46,660 bases of DNA from a virus, in the IMG/VR virus record IMGVR_UViG_3300042197_001217, positions 1-46,660 of that record. One strand, written 5' to 3'. Each line of letters opens with the position of its first letter. Positions within the stretch are counted from its first letter, which is position 1. Below the pieces are notes generated by a model. The model saw only the letters and a list, made by a program, of their open reading frames with translations, ran no database searches and was not told where the DNA came from. The translations under genes and the position numbers were made by a program. This document shows, piece by piece, positions 42,899 through 45,655 of the stretch.

Positions 42899-45655
42899 TT
42901 AGCCCCGCTCGTCGCCCCAATTCCAAGTCAATCCGTTAGTGTCTGTGAATGTGTTTGGATCGTTTCCGTCGTCCACGAAGCCAAAAGGGGTCATTTCCTC
43001 TTCCAAATTTTTCATTTGGTCTTCGTACAGGTCTTTTCGGATGTCGCTGCCTGTGATGTCTTTAAAATACGCTTGGGTGGTTAGCCACGAGAACAACACC
43101 AACGTCATCACCAAATCGTCGTTGTGGTTGTCTTCGGCTTCAAACGAGTCTCCACGAGCCACAAAAGTACACAACTCGTCCACCACACCAAAGTCCTCAA
43201 CCACCAATTTGGTGTCTTCAATCAGGTTTTTCAGAATAGAACACCCTATACGCTTCACGGCTGTGGAAGTCTTTACGCCTTTCATAGCCGAGCCTCCCTT
43301 GCCGAAGCCGCCGTTCACTACTTGTCCTTTGCGTCCCTGCATCTGCACATAGATGATGTTGTCGTATTCCATTTCATCGTGAAGAATGTCTGCTACCTGT
43401 TGTCCAATATCGTTGATTTCCACCAGTACATACGCGTTGTTGTACTGCCTAGCCACAGGGTAAATGGCGTTGGGGTACAACATGGGAGCCAATTGGTTGT
43501 TGCGGAATGTGGCGGCTAGTCGATACGGTATCTGTGTAACGTCCACTACTGTGAACGCATGGTAGTCCTGCCCCACGCCACGAGAGGTGTCCACCACAAG
43601 CACGTACTTGTGCTCGGGTTGTGGTTTGGCGTACACACGCAAGCCTTCACTATTGAAATATTCAGGGGTGCGGTACACAAGGCATTTAAGTTTTTCAGGA
43701 TGTATCAGGGTGTGAACTGAACCCAAGAACTCTGTTTCAAATTCCGTCCTGAACTGCTCTTCACTTGTGTTGGAGATGGTTTGCTTTTTCCACTCCTCAT
43801 CACGACCGGGCACATCGCTCCAGTGCACCTCTATGGGGTAGTACTCGTTCTTGCCTTCTTCGCCGGGTCGCTTGTTGGCATTGACCCACAGGCGGTAGAA
43901 CATGTTTAAGCCTTTGGGAGTAGACACAATAATCACTTTGGTTTCTTTACCACTTGTAATTGTGGGATACACGGACGAGAAGAATTCTTCAGCCACATTC
44001 TGTGGAACATAGGCAAATTCATCAAGCATTATGCAATTGTGAACTTCTATTCCATTTGCATAAAACGCATGAGTCTCTTGCACATCCAATAAATCATACA
44101 CATCTGTTTTACTACTGTTCTCAACAGAAACAACAGGAAGAATGCAATTCTCACAAACCACAAGATGCCCAGCAGATAAAGAAGCAGCAGCAACAAAACC
44201 AAAACCATCAACGCATATCTTGTGGTCTGGAGTACAGACTATTTTTCTATCGGGCAGATTTACAGTAATAGTGTCTTGTGAATATGTTTTGATTATTCCT
44301 TTGAATGGTCGGAAACCTCTTGATGTAAGTACTTCCCATCTATAAGTTTCATTCCCCGATTCCAAGCACCACCCTGTCTTGCTATTCGTGCTTTTGCTGA
44401 ATCGCTCATTTTCTTTTTTGCTTCCTCGCTTCGTTTCATTCCACGATGCTTCTCTGCTGTTTTTCGTATCTTGTCTGGATTTTTGTTTATCTTGTCTGAA
44501 TGGTCTTTCGTTTTTGGTTTCCCTGTTAGTGCAGAAGATATTTTCTGACAAAATTCTTGACTTCTTTTTATTCCAAGAAACCGACCACGATTTGCAGCAG
44601 ATATAAGGCTCTTTGCCTTCTCTGATAGTTTCCTTCCCTTGCTGGATTTTGACATCTTCAGTTTTGTTTCTTCTGTGTGTTTTGTTCCTGTTCTCATAAT
44701 TCTTCTTGCCTCTGAATACTGAATCATAACCATTTTCTTTTGCTGCTCTGTTAAGTGAACCATTTGCCCTTGACGACCAGTCACCATACGAAAATGGGCA
44801 TGAACCATTTTGGATTTTTCTATTCCCGATAAAAATTTGGTCAAGAGTTTGTGAGCCAGTAGATGTTCTTTGACTGTCAATTTCACCAAGTTGGAGTGTT
44901 CGTTTGTTCCACCCAAAGACTGTGGAATTATGTGGTGGATTTCGGTGAAGAAAGACTCGTCTAGACTCCTGTTCTTTGCATTCTCCATCATCAAAAAATA
45001 CCACTTCTTGTATTTGTTGTTTATCATTTGCATAAACATATTTATTATTTTTAGACGAGTCTGCGAACAGATTTTCAATACTAATATCAAAAATAGTTCC
45101 AGTAGTAGAATCTCGCAGGGTAATGACAGAATCTCCACTTATACAGTTAAATGAACCACCACGAACCGCAGACGACGAAGTAGCCGCTGCAAGCACTTTG
45201 GAACCGTTTTCTAATACAATAGACCCCTTGTTCCACTCCACCACACCCTGCTGCAACCATATGGGAAGGTATTCGTATGCTAGTTTGAGACGACCAAGCA
45301 GTTCACGGGCTGTAGCCAGTTTGTTGGCTAGAATGGCTATACTCATGTTCTGATTAAACAAGATATAGTGTAGCAAGAATGACACCATTGTGGTGGATTT
45401 GCCGCTCTGTCGAGGCATTTTGCAAATCACAAAACGGTTCTTATGCACCGCTTGGATCATGTCTTCCTGAAACTCATACGGATGAAACGGAACCAAGCCC
45501 TTGTCCAATGACACAATCTTTACATAATTCTTGATGAAATACAGCGGGTCTTGAGAGCACTTTACATACTCTTCAATCTGCTTTTCAGAGAAGTTGATAT
45601 TGACTCCAGCCGCTTTCAGGTTGGAGTTGCCCAAATACTTTTCACTCTTGTTCAC
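42899..45655 (-). CDS. 17: Terminase large subunit gp17, interrupted by an intein
   Basis: Packaging motor ATPase/nuclease. The precursor is 918 residues. Residues 1-170 are N-extein with Walker A MPRQSGKS (80-87). Residues 171-540 are an intein. The C-extein resumes with Walker B IMLDEFAY and continues with [13 protein letters not shown] (coupling motif) and the RNase-H-fold nuclease, seen as [19 protein letters not shown] and HNDDLVM. The joined product would be 548 residues, close to marine-phage gp17 (T4: 610). The start is GTG 45655 with AGGTAGAG just upstream, overlapping the preceding gene by 14 nt. Without splicing the ATPase site would be broken, so splicing should be essential. An HNH gene is nested in the +1 frame (44293-45027). 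Confidence 0.96.
44293..45027 (-). CDS. HNH homing endonuclease with NUMOD3-like repeats, nested in intein (+1 frame)
   Basis: A 244-residue protein from ATG 45027 ([20 protein letters not shown]), read +1 to the gp17-intein frame. The HNH core is [14 protein letters not shown]...[15 protein letters not shown], the form seen in phage free-standing homing endonucleases. Downstream, [32 protein letters not shown] and [16 protein letters not shown] are NUMOD3-like DNA-binding repeats, ending [10 protein letters not shown]. It has its own TAA stop at 44293-44295 inside the intein C-part. In-frame ATGs also occur at 45039, 45033, 44991 and 44988; no strong ribosome site is seen. It likely cuts intein-free gp17 genes to spread the element. 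Confidence 0.85.
45039..45046 (-). promoter_or_regulatory. Candidate late promoter AATAAATA in front of the nested HNH gene
   Basis: Within the intein coding region the minus strand reads AATAAATA, 11 nt before ATG 45027. A transcript from it would start at about 45033, making a nearly leaderless message for the HNH protein. T4 intron endonuclease genes also have internal late promoters. The region is AT-rich, so chance is a real possibility. Confidence 0.4.

Follow-up and report, generated by a model that had tools for sequence, protein, structure and literature searches.

An HNH endonuclease gene read in the +1 frame within a contiguous terminase intein of a T4-like virus and related viruses

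In the textbook arrangements the homing endonuclease is encoded in frame within the intein, or the endonuclease and the two halves of a split intein form separate open reading frames (ORFs). The locus described here lies in a stretch of 46,660 nucleotides from a T4-like virus (IMG/VR record IMGVR_UViG_3300042197_001217, positions 1 to 46,660; hereafter the window) and shares traits with both. Like a classical mobile intein it combines a contiguous intein with an endonuclease. However, the endonuclease is not read in the intein frame but in the +1 frame (26 of 26 loci) and is thereby not part of the intein polypeptide. As in fractured genes, and as in 30 relatives at the same TerL site, the endonuclease gene is situated between the N-terminal and the C-terminal intein piece (IntN and IntC). 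Whereas the host of a fractured gene is broken into separate ORFs, the window holds one continuous TerL-intein ORF with no stop between the halves.

The atypically split TerL inteins (AceL-TerL, GOS-TerL, Cat and VidaL) share with the window intein the terminase as host, an IntN of about 30 amino acids and an IntC of about 104. The IntN of AceL-TerL and GOS-TerL comprises 25 and 37 amino acids, respectively, and the consensus intein Cat consists of 30 + 104 residues (PMC11766414). In contrast to these inteins, which are made as two polypeptides, the pieces in the window belong to one open frame with a dual-coded linker. The free-standing HNH/NUMOD3 homing endonucleases of phages (mob type) belong to the same family as the window HNH, which is 31-38% identical to annotated ones, but they are separate genes, whereas the window HNH lies wholly within another coding frame. 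A hidden out-of-frame HNH has been described in the ShiLan domain, an element in an open phage methylase frame; this element lacks splicing domains and presumably remains in the protein (PMC11855218). The window HNH likewise lies out of frame in an insertion that does not interrupt the reading frame of its host. However, it is flanked by a conserved intein (splicing motifs and predicted fold) and its stop avoidance was quantified, while the ShiLan HNH differs in frame offset and family. No description of a hidden endonuclease inside a true intein was found in the open-access literature, ShiLan being the sole precedent found. An earlier note, made from the letters of the window, had proposed that this arrangement is distinct from in-frame endonuclease inteins and from fractured genes; this is borne out, with ShiLan as a precedent for a hidden HNH without an intein.

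The features of the locus, all on the minus strand, are as follows.

45146..45655, minus strand: TerL (gp17) N-extein with the ATPase domain; 170 codons, GTG start, Terminase_6N; its SFN end precedes Cys1

45056..45145, minus strand: IntN, the N-terminal intein piece, predicted to be folded; 30 residues from Cys1, pLDDT 82-93, conserved in 21 nested inteins

44348..45055, minus strand: passenger linker, intein residues 31-266; stop-free (0 versus 14-21 expected), predicted disordered (pLDDT about 30), overlapping the HNH

44293..45039, minus strand: putative HNH/NUMOD3 homing-endonuclease gene in the +1 frame; probable ATG at 45039 (or 45033, 45027), stop 44295-44293, ORF open back to 45138; phrog_655, NUMOD3, omega 0.13

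44036..44347, minus strand: IntC, the C-terminal intein piece; 104 residues, TxxH (CTPDH), terminal HN, pLDDT 86-96, predicted HINT match to VidaL and Cat

42899..44035, minus strand: TerL C-extein with the nuclease domain and stop; starts at Cys+1 (CIMLDEF, Walker B), Terminase_6C; empty-site homologue S-SKS1

44363..44365, minus strand: TTG, from which a separate IntC might start, though it is a weak candidate; sole intein-frame start-like codon in the 60 codons before IntC, derived from HNH Ala-Trp codons

The TerL ORF (45655-42899) encodes 918 amino acids without a break or a stop between IntN and IntC, and its flanks match the family models Terminase_6N and Terminase_6C. The intein corresponds to TerL residues 171-540 (45145-44036). 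It begins at the junction SFN|CISG, reads CISGDS...VHN and is followed by the C-extein CIMLDEF. The intein frame matches the C-terminal intein model TIGR01443, the match to Intein_splicing being sub-threshold. The HNH ORF (44293-45138, 281 codons) is offset by +1 relative to the intein frame and overlaps it on the same strand for about 220 codons. It matches the homing-endonuclease family phrog_655 (5.7e-34) and NUMOD3 (1.2e-6), and its protein carries the HHIIP...N...H motif and NUMOD3 DNA-binding repeats expected of a homing endonuclease. The intein has a complete set of splicing residues. Two readings of the earlier note stand, namely a gp17 frame that runs unbroken through the intein, and an HNH in the +1 frame at 44293-45027 with its own starts and stop, except that the ATGs at 45039 and 45033 are plausible starts too.

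An AlphaFold model built on an alignment of 21 nested-intein sequences was confident for intein residues 1-30 (pLDDT 82-93) and 267-370 (86-96), while residues 31-266 remained at about 30. A Foldseek search of the folded part against the PDB gave 53 matches at E <= 0.001, the top ones being inteins with VidaL first, and the intein profile matches Cat (6dsl) at 3e-15. By its residues and its predicted HINT fold the element is an intein, and the model together with these matches assigns it to the atypically split TerL type. Since IntN of 30 and IntC of 104 residues enclose the passenger, the HNH-coding segment appears to occupy the split point of the AceL-TerL and GOS-TerL inteins. For the HNH model no significant fold match was found in the PDB.

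Elsewhere in the window, positions 1783-22739 of the minus strand hold a long run of ORFs which, judged by eye from their translations, are related to sugars or glycans (glycosyltransferase-like, NAD-dependent epimerases, GHMP-type kinase, SIS isomerase, transaldolase-like, cytidylyltransferase-like, methyltransferases). This run could represent a surface-glycan pathway.

A stop arises in the intein frame wherever an HNH codon with T in the third position precedes a codon starting with AA, AG or GA. In the HNH core of the window T was present at 0 of 51 such sites versus 44 of 94 before other codons (Fisher 5e-11), and in the related locus L003 at 0 of 51 versus 52 of 91 (4e-14). Resampling of synonymous codons over the 217-codon core yielded a mean of 14-17 stops and not one stop-free sequence in 20,000 draws, and the third frame of the same DNA contains 19-23 stops, with 19 and 21 over the core. 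The exact probability of no stop across the 248-codon window HNH is 4e-9 with the codon usage of the gene itself and 8e-12 with that of the locus. The value of 1.6e-5 given in the earlier note, derived from a 3/64 chance of a stop per codon, was too naive, as it took account neither of the HNH protein nor of its codon usage.

The arrangement is not confined to the window. When the C-intein, the HNH alignment and the whole intein were used as queries, 26 distinct metagenomic viral loci were recovered, in all of which the HNH lies at +1 within an open TerL-intein frame with no stop, while the other sense frame contains 12-32. Given the HNH protein and codon usage, 7-21 intein-frame stops are expected per locus (P mostly 1e-6 to 1e-12). 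Pooled over the nested genes, T precedes stop-making codons in 0 of 1345 cases versus 591 of 1381 in non-nested HNH relatives, and its use before other codons is alike (1255 of 2686 and 1055 of 2167). As the loci are related, the pooled counts are not independent, although HNH identity with the window is as low as about 40% among the nested loci. The non-nested HNH relatives have 9-39 stops in the equivalent +1 frame. As about two dozen related viruses share the layout without a single one of the possible stops, it looks as if selection, and not accident, accounts for the twofold use of the DNA, in agreement with the earlier suggestion that the intein frame is kept open on purpose. All 21 complete nested inteins, the window included, keep Cys1, TxxH, the terminal N/Q and Cys+1. 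In the HNH tree the nested loci are strongly clustered with several long branches, and the tree does not decide for or against a single origin. Among deposited phages there was no nucleotide match to the window intein, and the five phages with C-intein matches that were inspected (Vibrio 1.244, E. coli G2494, Campylobacter CP21 and IBB_35, and SRB7757) carry split or mini forms and no nested one. Genome contigs scanned with the HNH alignment yielded none.

The two frames differ in what selection maintains. L003 (IMGVR_3300023179_000592) shares 82% DNA identity with the window, keeps both frames open and has an HNH of equal length. Between the two the HNH frame has a dN/dS (omega) of 0.13, which indicates purifying selection on the HNH protein, while the intein frame across the HNH is 56% identical and the third frame 59%. 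In five further nested pairs the identity of the passenger frame was likewise no better than that of the third frame, and passenger hydropathy equals that of synonymous resampling without stops (15 loci, z -1.0 to 1.4). Because both measures match their references, the absence of stops appears to be the sole detectable constraint on the passenger, and no sign of an amino-acid-level function was seen. Of the two frames whose conservation across TerL inteins had been in question, the HNH frame is therefore conserved under purifying selection and the passenger stretch of the intein frame only in its openness.

The choice of the +1 frame can be explained by the genetic code. In the +2 relation a Met followed by a codon starting with A makes a TGA unavoidable, and a Met-Lys pair occurs in the NUMOD region (GMKR) of 26 of 26 nested HNHs, each of which would suffer 1-8 forced stops. 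With the +1 offset none of the amino-acid pairs in the nested HNH proteins enforces a stop, because every codon ending in T has a synonym. Selection at silent sites could therefore keep the host frame free of stops at the +1 offset, whereas at +2 it could not, which fits all 26 cases.

The insertion site was further surveyed in 61 distinct inteins with both flanks seen, a census whose numbers reflect locus discovery and not prevalence. Contiguous inteins with an out-of-frame HNH account for 25 (compared with the 26 loci, L105 and L120 were left out as their upstream flank is missing and L110, whose HNH was already counted, was added), split inteins whose halves enclose an endonuclease that matches the HNH query for 30, and short contiguous mini-inteins and split inteins without an HNH match for three each, while none of the 61 was contiguous with an HNH in frame. 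Relatives with stops across the HNH region had been named beforehand as evidence against the arrangement. Such relatives exist in the 30 split loci; however, the ones inspected encode IntC in an ORF of its own and their HNH genes lack stop avoidance, so that they serve as controls and do not refute it. The close relative L165 is a natural mini-intein without the HNH stretch (...FANSSRNTIGSNDTKRQEISEWEVLTSQGF...), which suggests that this stretch is dispensable to the intein. Synechococcus phage S-SKS1 has an empty site (SFN|ILFLDEF). Patchy occupancy and empty sites are consistent with homing.

Several loci showed further variation. In L055, L064, L067, L111, L114, L115 and L118 TerL-N, IntN and HNH share one frame, followed by a stop and a separate IntC-TerL-C ORF. 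Repeated C-intein matches along one gene in L054, L056, L073, L015 and L111 indicate that some TerL genes harbour inteins or split inteins at two or three different sites. In the deposited terminase genes of Campylobacter phages IBB_35 (L180) and CP21 (L179) the breaks are attributed to an intein and to an intron carrying a MobE-like endonuclease. Both may be inteins, since two stretches resembling a C-intein can be discerned there. In L007 (IMGVR_3300048672_000522, 3292-6200), whose TerL intein is split, repeated in-frame TAG codons in TerL, IntC and HNH and an end at TAA suggest that this phage reads TAG as an amino acid.

Translation of the HNH is suggested mainly by the purifying selection on it. 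Every complete nested locus has an ATG ahead of the conserved NKY motif, and a Shine-Dalgarno match (>=4 nt) was found before the HNH in 9 of 24 nested loci, compared with 18% of control ATGs; the clade of the window is mostly without one. Alternatively, the HNH might be made by +1 ribosomal frameshifting as a fusion with TerL-N and IntN, which could be supported by the loci with an IntN-HNH fusion and by the window HNH frame being open upstream to 45138. However, in L052, L108, L109 and L163 an HNH-frame stop directly abuts the ATG, so that the shift would have to take place at the start codon itself and an upstream fusion is unlikely in these loci. Taking furthermore into account the conserved ATG before NKY and the Shine-Dalgarno matches in several loci, frameshifting seems very unlikely. 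A functionally split intein, in which IntC-TerL-C starts at an internal TTG or GTG, splicing occurs in trans and the open frame is secondary (e.g. translational coupling), seems unlikely as well. Many relatives at the TerL site are indeed split with separate IntC ORFs, and in the window's clade a TTG or GTG lies ten codons upstream of IntC, from which extra internal initiation may occur. This start-like codon, however, is dictated by the HNH codons and lacks a good Shine-Dalgarno sequence. Moreover, a split gene requires no open frame (the split relatives have 13-39 stops), and the total avoidance of stops over about 220 codons in 26 loci would be left unexplained.

Since HNH/NUMOD endonucleases are common in phage introns, a self-splicing intron carrying the HNH gene and removed from the RNA was also considered. 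However, the intein residues and the HINT fold are conserved, an intron would need no stop-free frame, and Rfam at its gathering threshold gave no match to a group I or II ribozyme core in the window region 42500-46660; the intron was therefore rejected as highly improbable. The window is a metagenomic contig, so that two compensating indels from sequencing or assembly, or a chance open frame, had to be considered too. The independent contig IMGVR_3300047481_000377 is identical over the terL-intein-HNH region, and the 82%-identical relative and 24 further loci share the layout, whereas an artefact would expose about 15 stops. The indels by which the earlier note expected its reading might fail are thus ruled out by the 26 loci, and a chance open frame by the resampling, the exact probabilities and the depletion of third-position T versus non-nested relatives, which leaves this explanation a negligible probability.

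The locus as a whole is best explained as a dual-coded mobile intein, to which we assign a probability of roughly 85%. The two open frames, the stop avoidance, the purifying selection on the HNH and the splicing motifs and their conservation across lineages are apparent from the sequences, from which we infer cis-splicing, HNH translation, cleavage and homing. TerL would be synthesised as a single precursor of 918 amino acids, in which the short IntN and the long IntC would pair into a HINT domain with the disordered linker of about 236 residues looped out, and SFN would be ligated to CIMLDEF by cis-splicing. In the +1 frame, the linker DNA would also encode a separate HNH/NUMOD3 homing endonuclease, translated from an internal start codon of its own, which presumably cuts inteinless terL at the Walker-B site and thereby spreads the element. 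Selection against a truncated essential terminase would keep the intein frame stop-free, and selection for homing would maintain the HNH protein.

The dual-coded state represents a third arrangement beside the two textbook ones, and it is likely a widespread coupling of intein and endonuclease, with full-length dual coding of a +1 gene in a cis-splicing intein and purifying selection at silent sites keeping the frame open. The overlap provides a clean, quantified signal of selection (0 stops versus about 15 expected per gene) and the frame that it uses can be explained at the level of codons. Endonucleases of this kind may be missed by gene callers that do not allow long overlaps, and the number of hidden ones may thus be underestimated. 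Since mini, split and dual-coded forms all occur at one TerL site, the origin of naturally split inteins becomes open to comparative study. If the locus is indeed dual-coding, the stop-free intein frame would ensure production of the essential terminase at all times, with the selfish gene carried along within it.
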